64,000 nucleotides of DNA from Leclercia sp. LSNIH1 (GTDB taxonomy: Bacteria; Pseudomonadota; Gammaproteobacteria; Enterobacterales; Enterobacteriaceae), in NCBI RefSeq assembly GCF_002902985.1, contig NZ_CP026167.1:4650001-4714000 (forward strand). The letters are read 5' to 3'. Positions 59,947-64,000 of this stretch are shown here, one piece after another. Position numbers and translations under genes: made by a program. A model generated the notes under the pieces. That model was not told the DNA's origin. It made no database searches and saw only the letters and a program-made list of their open reading frames with translations. Numbering within the stretch: the stretch's first letter is position 1; each line of letters starts with the position of its first letter.

Positions 59947-60291
59947 TTACTTTTTCGGGCGGTACTTTTCCGGCAGCTCTGGCACCGGGCGGCGATCGTC
60001 AATCAGATGGCAAATCGTCAGAATCGGGTGACGCCAGAGCATGCGCGGCCCCGCCCAACGCATGACCTGCTTCATCTCTTCACGCTTCGCGGGCTGGTAG
60101 CAGTGGACCGGGCACTGCTTGCAGGCCGGTTTCTCTTCGCCAAACACGCATTTATCCAGCCGCTTGTCGGCATACGCATTCAGCGCTGCGTAATGCCCCG
60201 CCTCTATAGAGGCCTGCGGGCACTGCTTTTCATAGAGCGCGATCATCTTGCGGATGGTCTCTTTTTCACGCGCGATCCGTTTTCCTGCCAT
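59947..60291 (-). CDS. ygbA: Nitrous-oxide-stimulated promoter family protein YgbA
   Basis: This 114-residue protein of PF11756 has eight or so conserved residues in the pattern CVFGEEKPACKQCPVHCYQ (residues about 48-66), suggesting a metal or iron-sulfur site. E. coli ygbA is under NsrR control and lies next to mutS, as here. It has been linked to growth under nitrosative stress. Confidence 0.9.
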   Translation of the reverse strand: MAGKRIAREKETIRKMIALYEKQCPQASIEAGHYAALNAYADKRLDKCVFGEEKPACKQCPVHCYQPAKREEMKQVMRWAGPRMLWRHPILTICHLIDDRRPVPELPEKYRPKK

Positions 60292-60481: not shown

Positions 60482-60712
60482 ATGTCAGATATCAGCATTT
60501 CCAGACCCAGCCGTCAGCTCACTGTGGGGTATTTCAGAAAGCGCCATGAGGATCGCAAGACCAAGATCCCGACCCGCTACAGCGTACACGCCGCGTTGAG
60601 TTTAAAGGGCGACTGGCTGGAAGAGGCCGGTTTTAAAACCCATTCCCGGGTACGGGTGCTGGTGGAACAAGGAAAACTGGTGATTGAGCTGGTCGGCGAA
60701 GAGCCGGACTAA
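60482..60712 (+). CDS. SymE-like toxin-family protein
   Basis: This 76-residue protein resembles SymE, an AbrB-fold protein that condenses nucleic acid and, in E. coli, is held down by the antisense RNA SymR and the SOS system. The core IPTRYSVHAALSLKGDWLEEAGF and RVRVLVEQGKLVIEL are the family signature. The strong RBS AAAAGGAG precedes the ATG. An antisense RNA across its 5' end is expected but I could not define one. No LexA box is seen near the start. Confidence 0.8.
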   Translation: MSDISISRPSRQLTVGYFRKRHEDRKTKIPTRYSVHAALSLKGDWLEEAGFKTHSRVRVLVEQGKLVIELVGEEPD

Positions 60713-60825: not shown

Positions 60826-60906
60826 ATGACCACTACCGATAATTTTGACGCCCATACCCCTATGATGCAGCAGTACTTCTCTAGACAATCTAATGTCATG
60901 ATCTAA
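60826..60906 (+). pseudogene. mutS: 5' fragment of mutS, cut off by the island
   Basis: The codons from 60826 read MTTTDNFDAHTPMMQQYFSRQSN. The part NFDAHTPMMQQY is the invariant start of enterobacterial MutS, which continues LRLKAQHPEI in E. coli. After CAGCAGTAC (ending 60876) the sequence changes to AT-rich DNA and a stop occurs at 60904, giving a 26-residue product. ygbA upstream confirms the location. The mismatch-repair gene is thus separated from its native start within this window; whether the far island end restores it cannot be seen. Confidence 0.88.
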
Positions 60907-60954
60907 AATGAATAAATATAAAAACCCTCTTCAAAAGTTACTTATAGGCTACAT

Positions 60955-61425
60955 ATGAAAAGGATAATCGGTTATCTCTTCACATTACTCTTACTTGTTG
61001 TGCTTGTGTATGCAGGATTAGTAAAGGGCGATGTATTCCCTGAATGGATCATGAGTAAGAAGCTCATGATTCGTTGTGGATTGATAGGTGTTCTTGGTGG
61101 AACTCTTTACTGCATTCGTGGAGTATATCTAAACAAATGTGTTAGGAATTGTTGGGATGACCGTTGGCATGTTTGGTATGTATTAAGACCTATCGTTAGT
61201 GGCATCTGCGGTGTAGTGGCTTATCTATTCCTTAAAGCTGGATTAATAGTGTTAGATGCATCACAAAATGGCAGTGGTGGTGACTACGGATATATGGCAT
61301 TTGCCTTCTTTGCAGGGTTGAATGTCGATAAGTTCGTTGGCAAAATTGAAGATGTTGGTATGGCTATTTTTGGGATTGAAAAATCTCGCACAGCAAGATC
61401 GGGTGATAATTCCGATCAGAAATAA
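60955..61425 (+). CDS. Small multi-pass membrane protein of a putative defence operon
   Basis: This 156-residue protein has three or four hydrophobic helices (about residues 3-23, 37-58, 74-100 and 112-128) and a polar C-terminus. I do not recognise the family. It is the first gene of an operon with the metallo-beta-lactamase protein, 16 bases downstream. In conflict systems such small membrane proteins often act as pore-forming effectors or membrane anchors, but nothing in the sequence proves it. Confidence 0.75.
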   Translation: MKRIIGYLFTLLLLVVLVYAGLVKGDVFPEWIMSKKLMIRCGLIGVLGGTLYCIRGVYLNKCVRNCWDDRWHVWYVLRPIVSGICGVVAYLFLKAGLIVLDASQNGSGGDYGYMAFAFFAGLNVDKFVGKIEDVGMAIFGIEKSRTARSGDNSDQK

Positions 61426-61441
61426 TTAAAAAGGATATGAT

Positions 61442-62596
61442 ATGTCTGCAAAGATATGCTTCTTTCCCGTTGGGAATGGGGATATGACCCTCATCCAAAC
61501 GGAAGATGATAAAAATATTTTAATAGATTGTCGCATCAGGGATGGTGAAGAACATCCTGATGTTCGCACCCAACTCAGAGAAAAGCTTCCTCGAAATAAC
61601 GAAGGTCGTTTGTTTGTCCATCTTTTTATTTGGACTCACCCTGATTCAGATCATTGTGATGGGGTGGCTGACCACTTTCATTTAGGAAAACCAGAAGATT
61701 GGAGTGAGAAGAACGATAAAATTTTTATAAATGAGATTTGGTCAAGTCCAATTGTATTCAGGCGACACCATGCACAAAATCATCCGTTATGCGATGATGC
61801 AATAGCTTTGAATAAAGAAGTTAAGAGAAGAGTTAATCTTTATAAAGAAAAAAATTATTTGGATGGAGTTGGAAACCAAGTTCTGGTCTTAGGAAAAGAC
61901 GAAGATGGGAAAACAGACGACATACCAGGTATCCTATTAGAATTAGACCAAAAAACCCGCTGGATTAATCAAAGTTATTCTTCATATTTTGAAGCTCATT
62001 TATTGGGTCCTTCACCCAAGAAAGATCTTGATGAGTTGGAAGATAAATTAGGTAAAAATCATTCCAGCGTAATAATAAATTTTGAAATTAAAGGTGACAA
62101 TAAAACTGCACACTTTTTAAGTGGTGGTGATGCAGAAGTCGTTTGTTGGGAAGGTGTTAGAGATCGTTTAACCAATAAATATTCTATGTCATGGTTAGAT
62201 TATGACATTTTACAAGCACCACATCACTGTTCTTGGCATAGTCTATCTCATGATAGTTTAAGCAAAAAAGGAGATGATGCTAAAACTTCCGAGAAAGCTA
62301 TGGAAGTTTTTAATAGAGCAAAAGAAAAAGCATTTATAATTTCAAGCTCTAAAACAATTGAAAATGACGAAAAAGATCCTCCAGCATACCGAGCCAAAGA
62401 AGAATATGAAAAAATAGTAGATGATGTGCAAGGTCAGTTTTTATGTGTGTCAGACCATAAAAAGAATGGAGAGAATATTCCGTTAGAGATTGAAATTTCC
62501 GATAACGGTATTAAGAAAATTGCTGCATCTGCATTAGGTATGGCCGAATCATCAAGTGCCGCTGTAAATAGACAAGGTGGTGGTGGTTATGCCTGA
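61442..62596 (+). CDS. Metallo-beta-lactamase-fold hydrolase of a putative defence operon
   Basis: This 384-residue protein has the opening VGNGDMTLI (residues 10-18), typical of ComEC-like beta-lactamase-fold enzymes. The metal motif HPDSDHCDG has H66, D68, D70 and H71; LSGGDAE and QAPHHCSWHS lie near residue 223 and 258. These suggest a working dimetal hydrolase acting on a phosphodiester or other ester. There is no signal peptide, so it is cytosolic. The ribosome site AAGGAT lies close to the ATG. It overlaps the E2-E1 gene by eight bases, indicating coupled synthesis. Genes of this class occur beside E1-like enzymes in predicted conflict operons. Confidence 0.85.
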   Translation: MSAKICFFPVGNGDMTLIQTEDDKNILIDCRIRDGEEHPDVRTQLREKLPRNNEGRLFVHLFIWTHPDSDHCDGVADHFHLGKPEDWSEKNDKIFINEIWSSPIVFRRHHAQNHPLCDDAIALNKEVKRRVNLYKEKNYLDGVGNQVLVLGKDEDGKTDDIPGILLELDQKTRWINQSYSSYFEAHLLGPSPKKDLDELEDKLGKNHSSVIINFEIKGDNKTAHFLSGGDAEVVCWEGVRDRLTNKYSMSWLDYDILQAPHHCSWHSLSHDSLSKKGDDAKTSEKAMEVFNRAKEKAFIISSSKTIENDEKDPPAYRAKEEYEKIVDDVQGQFLCVSDHKKNGENIPLEIEISDNGIKKIAASALGMAESSSAAVNRQGGGGYA

Positions 62597-64000
62597 TTGT
62601 CTTAATAAAAAGATAGATCAGTTGAGCACTATCCTTGCACCTTATGGTGCAAGGAAGCTTTCTACGAATGAATTATCAAAATTCAACGGTAAATATGTTT
62701 GTGCTTGGGAATTAGTAACTGATTTAGAATTTAGTAATGAACCTATTGTATTGCAACTAAGATACAAAACTCTTAGTCAATTTGACATCCCAGATGTGTT
62801 TATTTCCTCACCAAAAATTGATGTTTGCCAACTCCCACACTTGGAAAAAAATGGCAAGTTATGTGTTTGGCCTGACATTTATATCATCGATCATAATGAT
62901 ATGACCTATGCAGTCGATTTACTAAACGATGCTATACTAATGCTAAGAAAAGGAATAAATGGTGATTTAAATGAGGATTTTATTGATGAGTTCCAGAACT
63001 ATTGGATTTATCAATGTAATAAAATAGATCGACTTATAAGCCAGTGTGATCTAACAAATAAAAACACAAGGTTGGTTTTCGGTTATCGGACCCGGAAATT
63101 TGGAGTAATATATTCTGACACACAAAAAGAATTAATTAACTGGTTGGAAAACCAAAAAATATTGCCATTAGAATCGGATGGAAGTAATTCAAAAGATAAA
63201 CGAATAAGGCAACAGCAACTCTCTAAAGTAGTTTCAATTCCATTGATATTCTTCAATGAAGCCTGGTATCCGAGTCAATATCCCAAAACTGCAAGGGATT
63301 TTTTTGAACTCATAAATCAGCAACAGGAAGATCCAGAAAGCACTATTGAATTGATCTTAAGATCTTGTGCTAATATGTTCAATGTCAAGCCCATAATTCT
63401 AGTTTCATTCCCAACGCCTTCTGGGATGAATATTATAGGAATACAGATTCCTAAGGGAGTTAGTGATCTTGCCACTGACCGCTTTGATACCAGAGGTATT
63501 AGTCGGGGTCGATTCAGAAATACAGCTTTATTAGATGGTTATAGAAATTACATTGATGGAAAGATTTTAAAAAATAGAATAGGCCAAACTAAAACAGAAA
63601 ATCTTATAGTAGACCGTTCTGACGATTCTTGGTTAACGGGTCGTGAGCATAACAAAACTTACAAGAAAATCTCTGAACATAAAGTAGCTATCGTCGGATG
63701 TGGTTCAGTAGGATCTTCGGTATCAAGACTGTTACTTCAATCAGGCATTAGAAAAATGATGCTTTGGGATGATGATTTAATGAAGAGTGAAAACTCCTCT
63801 CGTCATCTATTAGGATTTGATTCTGTTTATAAAAATAAAGCATTAGCTCTTGCCTCAAGGCTACGGGAAGAGTTTCCAAATGTCTATATAGAAGCTTTTA
63901 ATGAAGATTGGACAGAAGATTCCAAGTATAACAAAAAAATTGCAGAAGCCGATATTATAGTAAGCTGCACTGCACATTGGAATACTGAACAGCAGTTAAT
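62589..64000 (+). CDS. E2-E1 fusion, ubiquitin-conjugation-like enzyme, C-terminus off the window
   Basis: The frame from the ATG at 62589 stays open for 470 codons to the window edge. The first 150 residues resemble a prokaryotic E2: the segment HLEKNGKLCVW places the candidate catalytic Cys at residue 92. From about residue 360 a ThiF/E1 Rossmann domain begins: VAIVGCGSVGSS (glycine loop G370-G375), LWDDD as the nucleotide-binding acidic end, and NSSRHLLG with the ATP-binding Asn/Arg. A middle domain (about 150-350) is unassigned. The layout resembles CBASS Cap2, but there is no nucleotidyltransferase gene beside it. The substrate tag and the end of the protein are outside the window. Confidence 0.85.
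   Translation, partial: MPDCLNKKIDQLSTILAPYGARKLSTNELSKFNGKYVCAWELVTDLEFSNEPIVLQLRYKTLSQFDIPDVFISSPKIDVCQLPHLEKNGKLCVWPDIYIIDHNDMTYAVDLLNDAILMLRKGINGDLNEDFIDEFQNYWIYQCNKIDRLISQCDLTNKNTRLVFGYRTRKFGVIYSDTQKELINWLENQKILPLESDGSNSKDKRIRQQQLSKVVSIPLIFFNEAWYPSQYPKTARDFFELINQQQEDPESTIELILRSCANMFNVKPIILVSFPTPSGMNIIGIQIPKGVSDLATDRFDTRGISRGRFRNTALLDGYRNYIDGKILKNRIGQTKTENLIVDRSDDSWLTGREHNKTYKKISEHKVAIVGCGSVGSSVSRLLLQSGIRKMMLWDDDLMKSENSSRHLLGFDSVYKNKALALASRLREEFPNVYIEAFNEDWTEDSKYNKKIAEADIIVSCTAHWNTEQQL

Follow-up and report, generated by a model that had tools for sequence, protein, structure and literature searches.

What do the conjugation enzymes of a bacterial operon attach when no ubiquitin-like gene accompanies them? 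The question is raised by one end of a 64,000-nucleotide stretch of Leclercia sp. LSNIH1 DNA (contig NZ_CP026167.1, positions 4,650,001 to 4,714,000, forward strand; G000:C1:4650001-4714000 in our numbering), referred to here as the window. An original prediction, made from this sequence, had described three tightly spaced same-strand genes in AT-rich DNA, for a membrane protein, a metallo-beta-lactamase (MBL)-fold protein, and an E2-E1 fusion, and had read them as a defense operon. The open reading frames (ORFs) of the window bear out the three genes at their positions, all on the + strand, and the GC content is 34.6% at 62001-64000, compared with 46.8 to 63.0% in the thirty 2-kb bins before 60001. 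The end of the window cuts the operon inside the E2-E1 gene; in the genome it has five genes, encoding TM1 (a four-transmembrane [4TM] protein), the MBL, the E2-E1 fusion, a JAB peptidase, and TM2 (a second 4TM protein), and adjacent genes overlap by 8 bases or are separated by a gap of 15 to 16 bases. The comparisons described below suggest, at the level of sequence, that the protein attached by the operon's enzymes is the MBL-fold enzyme itself and not a ubiquitin-like protein. The parts of the operon are as follows; loci are numbered L, and L002 is the own-genome stretch that runs past the window, position x of L002 being window position x + 60000.

60955..61425, + strand: TM1, membrane protein of 156 amino acids, probable effector (46-row alignment, AlphaFold2, hydropathy)
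61442..62596, + strand: MBL-fold enzyme (6A-MBL), 384 amino acids, proposed modifier (NF058524, AlphaFold2, Foldseek)
61637..61654, + strand: MBL metal motif H66-P-D68-S-D70-H71 (sequence; conservation in 85 sequences)
62561..62593, + strand: conjugation-type C-terminal tail of the MBL, AVNRQGGGGYA (homologue comparison; predicted local distance difference test score [pLDDT] below 50 at residues 367-384)
62589..64000, + strand, cut at the window end and ending at L002:4463: Cap2-like E2-E1 fusion, 624 amino acids (Pfam, PADLOC, PDB profile)
62862..62864, + strand: E2 catalytic cysteine C92 (invariant in 28/28 E2-E1 proteins)
63696..63713, + strand: E1 nucleotide loop GCGSVG, residues 370-375 (glycines invariant in 28/28 E2-E1 proteins)
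L002:4456-4938: JAB peptidase, 160 amino acids from ATG, directly after E2-E1
L002:4954-5346: TM2, 130 amino acids with four hydrophobic stretches (hydropathy), last gene of the operon

Both halves of the fusion protein are recognizable. It matches ThiF (8e-22) and Prok-E2_B (2.5e-9) in Pfam and scores 339 bits on the PADLOC E1-E2 model, and its best match in the PDB is Cap2 of the cyclic oligonucleotide-based antiphage signaling system (CBASS), with an E value of 2.8e-25 for a 21-row profile, mainly over the E1 part, and of 3e-11 for the single sequence; BubCD is among the weaker PDB matches. The assignment of the E2 and E1 folds rests on these sequence profiles. Translation could start at GTG 62577 or at ATG 62589, the latter being the start that RefSeq annotates in the Escherichia coli copy (624 amino acids), and with the ATG start the residues originally proposed (H66, D68, D70, and H71 of the MBL, Cys92 of E2, and the glycine loop at 370-375) are numbered correctly. 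H84, C92, G370, G372, G375, D394, N402, R405, K417, and C538 are invariant in all 28 aligned E2-E1 proteins, a set that includes close relatives. C538, which lies past the window end, is the putative E1 cysteine, to judge from its invariance and the parallel with Cap2. Extending the contig brought out the JAB gene that had been suspected to follow. Its product scores 40 bits on Pfam Prok-JAB and 125 bits on the PADLOC JAB model and stays under the NCBIfam Cap3 cutoff (65 versus 200 bits); a JAMM motif is present at all 28 loci of the aligned E2-E1 proteins, some of them close relatives. The ubiquitin-like gene that had been named as another possible follower did not appear: Pfam scans of the five operon genes and the next two ORFs detected no ubiquitin-like domain. 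Bil and Bub are bacterial systems with E1, E2, and JAB-type enzymes, and the operon resembles them in these enzymes but differs in lacking, in the same scans, the ubiquitin-like gene by which Bil is recognized.

The MBL scores 377 bits on the NCBIfam model 6A-MBL_enzyme (NF058524; cutoff, 220), an antiphage family by name, which implies that someone has already described the system as antiphage. Its metal residues H66, D70, and H71 are invariant, and D68 is nearly so, in 85 sequences. An AlphaFold2 model built from an 85-row alignment has a mean pLDDT of 89.8, with residues 367-384 below 50, and these residues probably form a flexible, disordered tail on a confidently predicted fold. The best Foldseek match of the model is the MBL domain of ComEC (9ic4; E of 1.4e-11; TM-score, 0.68 by target and 0.49 by query), other MBL-fold enzymes following with lower scores, and a PDB sequence-profile match over residues 4-76 (E of 6e-5) agrees with ComEC. 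Common to both proteins is the ComEC-type MBL fold, whereas the protein here, at 384 amino acids, has the MBL fold only, and its score on the ComEC_Rec2 model (11.1 bits versus 190) places it outside the ComEC/Rec2 competence family.

What is new here, from sequence comparison and structure prediction, is that the C-terminus of the 6A MBL is a predicted disordered tail whose end is conserved and of the conjugation type. Among the best 120 of 2602 MBL relatives, a list that overlaps the set of fetched loci described below, the C-termini are conserved and the stretch that precedes them is variable. The tail reads AVNRxGGxGYA in the window clade and QPLAHG in another clade, and elsewhere PRAG, xHG, or GYG. 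A motif defined as RAG, HG, YA, YG, or GFG followed by 0 to 6 residues is present in 115 of the 120, and the last residue is G or A in 104 (a table of tail columns from 70 sequences, picked for their YA ending, is informative only at position -3 and further). The fetched loci contain 39 distinct 6A MBLs after removal of duplicates, and 38 of these carry the motif: all 32 whose E2-E1 gene follows immediately in at least one fetched copy, and 6 of the 7 that have no confirmed adjacent E2-E1 because they lie on short contigs or at record ends, because E2-E1 is not adjacent, or because an insertion sequence (IS) intervenes. One of these seven, L118, has an annotated adjacent ThiF gene. The sole miss, L072, is cut by an IS1 element. 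In this locus, from E. coli J3 (L072:6137-7985), IS1 follows a truncated MBL that has lost its tail, but the E2-E1 and JAB frames remain open, which makes it a naturally occurring example without the tail. As a control, 23 distinct related MBLs of the PDC-M48B type were inspected, and none has the motif (0/23); shuffling the last 40 residues of the 39 yields it in a mean of 1.7 and a maximum of 7. With the strict criterion of a last residue G or A, as published for CBASS, the counts are 19 of 39 versus 3 of 23 (Fisher p = 0.006), and 17 of the 32 with confirmed E2-E1. A second, tail-less MBL lies in or beside some 6A operons (L071:11752-12657, L079:3214-4125, L092:12099-13079, L102:10204-11283, and L117:4989-6059), typed as PDC-M48B by PADLOC in L071 and by homology in the other four.

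This pattern bears on the possibility that E2-E1 and JAB act on a sulfur carrier of the host (ThiS or MoaD) or on an unlinked ubiquitin-like protein, with the MBL acting not as a modifier but as a nuclease effector in its own right. The E1 domain is indeed ThiF-like, the Pfam scans of the operon are empty of ubiquitin-like domains, and the accessible text of Iyer 2006 proposed the use of endogenous ThiS/MoaD. However, this explanation, which we regard as unlikely, leaves unexplained why the C-terminus is conserved although the linker before it varies, and why this is so solely in 6A MBLs.

The core of the operon has been known since 2006. Table 1 of Iyer 2006 (row 6a) lists an E2-E1-JAB triple-module protein that almost always adjoins an MBL, and the likeness to this 6A operon (models NF058523 and NF058524) lies in the MBL gene beside E2, E1, and JAB modules, with the MBL clearly over its cutoff. 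Here, in contrast, E2-E1 (624 amino acids) and JAB (160 amino acids) are separate genes and not one polypeptide, and TM1 and TM2 are added; by its sequence the operon is of the 6A type in split form.

By analogy, the operon would work like type II CBASS. The order of effector, modifier, E2-E1, and JAB is the same as in loci L131 and L132, except that the MBL takes the cyclase position, and both systems have a Cap2-like E2-E1 and a Cap3-like JAB (PADLOC scores and the subthreshold Cap3 score as above). L131 and L132 served as positive controls: both consist of patatin, cyclase, E1-E2, and JAB genes (patatin was scanned in L131 only), and their cyclases end in RTKAG and HSKAG. They came from a search that yielded six of 229 genomes, none over the Cap3 cutoff and one of them the window's own; in two of the other five a cyclase lies beside E1-E2. 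At L133 the script flagged no JAMM ORF, and L134 is a gammaproteobacterial E1-E2 and JAB pair with no recognized modifier gene alongside. The available part of Jenson 2023 states that the cyclases of Cap2/Cap3 operons end in G or A, that conjugation is lost when the last residue is deleted or replaced by S, V, R, or W and reduced when it is replaced by A, and that the deletion phenocopies loss of Cap2. In a Nat Microbiol 2024 paper, likewise available in part, a cyclase with the tail KPGGFA is conjugated through its Ala to lysines of PspA and removed scarlessly by Cap3. The MBL, ending in ...GGGGYA, has a terminal residue of the G/A kind, its conjugation being a prediction. The operon differs from type II CBASS in that the tailed protein is an MBL-fold enzyme and in that no cyclic nucleotide signal is known for it; neither the five genes nor the two ORFs that follow them have a CD-NTase domain in Pfam scans, and the PADLOC families displayed for the five products include no cyclase. 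Since a CD-NTase is missing there, the operon is not a member of type II CBASS.

We consider it probable that the operon is a mobile antiphage system built like type II CBASS, in which a ComEC-like MBL metallohydrolase replaces the cyclase and is conjugated by E2-E1 and removed by JAB. In the scheme that we propose, the conjugation, its target, the substrate of the MBL, the action of the effector, and the protection against phage are each set out as predictions. E2-E1 would adenylate the C-terminal Ala of the MBL, which would pass to the E1 cysteine C538 and then to C92 of E2, and the enzyme would then form an isopeptide bond between the MBL and a lysine of a target that may be a membrane, host, or phage protein. 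JAB would cleave this bond again; tails that carry a short extension would first be trimmed by the same enzyme. Conjugation would prime or place the MBL, and upon infection its hydrolase activity, as a nuclease or nucleotide phosphodiesterase, would trigger TM1 to damage the membrane, a role that in other operons may fall to a different 4TM protein, to a patatin, or to a DUF2235 protein.

The membrane proteins or lipases encoded near the MBLs are the likely effectors. TM1 has the motifs LYCLRxVYLNxCVRxxWDxxWExWYYLRP and, at its C-terminus, GLNVDKF...GIEKSR, with 25 invariant columns in a 46-row alignment, and AlphaFold2 predicts an all-helical protein (mean pLDDT, 85.8). Hydropathy shows three stretches here and four in the relatives L073 and L079, and four helices are expected; the E. 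coli copy has a later start in RefSeq, which makes it 124 amino acids long. TM1 belongs to no Pfam, NCBIfam, or PADLOC family (best Pfam E, 0.51) and matched nothing in the PDB better than E of 0.4 by sequence profile, and TM2 gave no notable match in the Pfam, NCBIfam, and PADLOC scans. Lysines 126, 130, and 143 of TM1 (window 61330-61383) are nearly invariant and would be possible acceptor sites if TM1 were the target of conjugation. The placement of TM1 varies, from upstream (window) to divergent behind a WYL gene (L073 and L124, with an unannotated L080 alike) to downstream (L074 and L079), and in all 18 plasmids among the matches listed for both proteins, no more than 3 kb separates TM1 from the MBL (by eye). 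Three further 4TM families, making four with TM1, lie beside both kinds of MBL. The PDC-M48B MBL candidates of PADLOC thus share the 4TM neighbors, including TM1 itself (L086 and L095), but not the conjugation-type tail, and no E2-E1 was seen in the loci in which tail-less MBLs adjoin these four families. Patatins (L104, L122 [other strand], and L123) or DUF2235 genes (L075 and L099 [other strand]) are found at other 6A loci, and a membrane or lipase gene is near in 27 of the 34 loci with enough flank (by eye).

Several observations weigh against conjugation of the MBL. The motif was defined after the tails had been seen, and it is missed by five of the best 120 of 2602 homologues (two ending in GYS, one in RFA, and two without the end). 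Ten of the 23 control MBLs share a locus with a 6A MBL, so that the control speaks to MBL type and not to the plain absence of E2-E1. Six of the 39 tails are the near-identical ones of the window clade; outside this clade the motif is kept in 32 of 33, and the strict criterion is satisfied by 13 of 33, so that the strict test alone is weak there. The E2-E1 of the split clade fails the 6A cap2_3 model NF058523 (68.5 bits versus the 320 needed; JAB scores 42.4 bits on it), the proteins scanned at two of the five CBASS-control loci outside this genome (L134 and L135) include no recognized modifier, and no membrane or lipase gene was seen by eye near the MBL in 7 of the 34 loci (L081, L083, L087, L088, L089, L094, and L101). 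Furthermore, 18 tails stop exactly at the motif and 20 carry 1 to 6 extra residues, which calls for an unproven trimming step. Finally, the tail DNA of the window clade is identical, its YA codons share bases with the start codon of E2-E1, and a run of GGT in this clade may serve as the E2-E1 ribosome-binding site; in that clade, therefore, selection on the protein is not separable from selection on the overlapping start.

The last of these points is the basis for an explanation in which the tail is a by-product of gene overlap or translational coupling, shaped by the start codon and ribosome-binding site of E2-E1 and not as a protein signal. In the window clade, TAT GCC TGA overlaps the start codon (ATG) of E2-E1, which has GGT repeats before it. 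RAG and HG tails nevertheless persist at loci whose E2-E1 begins after the stop codon of the MBL (L075, L091, L100, L103, and L122), and in several loci of the PRAG clade the next gene begins past the MBL stop. Moreover, the Pro, Arg, Ala, and Gly codons of PRAG show much synonymous change (CCC CGG GCA GGT; CCT AGG GCA GGT; CCG CGA GCG GGG; and others), over records from alphaproteobacteria, gammaproteobacteria, and cyanobacteria, from which it follows that in that clade the protein is what selection acts on. We therefore do not accept that gene overlap fully explains the tail, and as an account in its own right it seems highly improbable.

The extended tails raise another possibility. Examples are PRAG-VINQ, PRAG-VKK, PRAG-SPR, PRAG-RWR, KHG-DDD, and SHG-SD, in which the extension varies and the G is constant; ubiquitin precursors likewise have a variable extension past a constant G. 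Short variable extensions past G also resemble a protease site, as would be expected if the tail merely were the cleavage site of JAB, or if it bound or activated E2-E1 noncovalently. Against this idea, which we think doubtful, Cys92, Cys538, and the adenylation residues of E2-E1 are invariant in 28 of 28 proteins, although pure docking would have no need of them.

The system is mobile. The island in this genome is 99.93% identical to that of E. coli MB06022 over 16,563 bases (60838-77400, the end of the compared stretch), and a recent transfer follows from this identity. Close DNA matches occur in 17 of 5426 E. coli genomes, all chromosomal, nine of them with at least 99% identity and 16 covering at least 80% of the query. 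Relatives of the MBL are present in 248 of 72,556 plasmid records, 141 of the 248 typed as conjugative, and in 0 of 50,697 phage records. In sampled genomes, MBLs above the cutoff occur in 3 of 60 relatives, 5 of 369 genomes from the class, and 7 of 398 from the phylum; the draws overlap, and the window's own genome is among the positives of each (by eye). Identity of the operon to L070, L097, and L011 stops inside the JAB gene (64896-64898 in window numbering), and to L009 at 65003, 65 bases past that gene. L010 has a match to TM2 and L011 a more divergent one, L009 shows none, and L070, L078, and L097 have a different 4TM gene in its place. The gene after JAB, and sometimes the 3' end of JAB, is swapped in cassette-like fashion among operons otherwise 87 to 92% identical (L009, L011, L070, and L097 versus L002).

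The left edge of the shared unit lies just upstream of TM1, and further upstream is a ygbA-like gene:

60838..60954, + strand: operon leader, left edge of the shared unit (blastn of the own genome versus seven loci)
59947-60291, - strand: ygbA-like gene upstream of the operon, its C-terminus matching E. coli ygbA

In the blastn comparison, identity begins at 60838-60862 in E. coli (L069 and L070), a relative in the genus (L097), and Pectobacterium (L009 and L011), and at 60955 in Citrobacter (L010); the genus relative L096 matches further left. The island shared with E. coli MB06022 is close to ygbA there too. Between the ygbA-like gene and the defense island is a symE-type toxin gene (60482-60712; Pfam SymE_toxin, 2e-17). 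Type I restriction-modification (R-M) and kwaA/KwaB-like genes lie downstream at L002:7822-15412 (window numbering, 67822-75412), by match to the annotated E. coli copy. To judge from these sequences, the operon sits in an AT-rich, mobile phage defense island with Kiwa-like and type I R-M neighbors.

The operon might instead serve the upkeep of plasmids or islands, through addiction or the exclusion of other elements, and not phage defense. The 248 plasmid records, with their 141 conjugative plasmids, favor such a role, and addiction is mentioned as an option in the accessible text of Iyer 2006. On the other hand, NCBIfam labels the family antiphage, and the neighbors here are R-M and Kiwa. 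The patatins noted above and regulators, either WYL or HTH plus ImmA/IrrE genes, also lie near 6A operons, as in CBASS, and upkeep has, in our estimate, only a small chance of being the function. The defense reading of the original prediction is supported in part, by the antiphage model match, the PADLOC E1-E2 and JAB matches, the R-M and Kiwa neighbors, and the mobile distribution; it was incomplete, for it covered three of five genes, did not connect the core with the 6a neighborhood of 2006, and overlooked the tail of the MBL.

A search of the open literature, with most subscription papers and preprints outside its scope and an earlier description therefore possible, found no paper that states or denies conjugation of an MBL; what it returned for 6A-MBL or MBL-linked E1/E2 was Iyer 2006, articles and reviews on CBASS, and work on other subjects, with none on antiphage activity of 6A-MBL, and a paper about a Vibrionaceae plasmid contains nothing on the matter. 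We think it reasonably likely that MBL-fold metallohydrolases are a second class of modifiers without the beta-grasp fold, conjugated through a conserved and sometimes protease-matured tail by a dedicated E2-E1, like the CD-NTases of CBASS, and that the MBL and 4TM core hence occurs with and without conjugation machinery, as in CBASS. The tail evidence provides a concrete second candidate modifier, with a named residue and named enzymes, in a small, clonable operon. If this proposal is correct, the 6A operons described in 2006 would gain a mechanism, and conjugation machinery would be a module that is added onto unrelated sensor enzymes.

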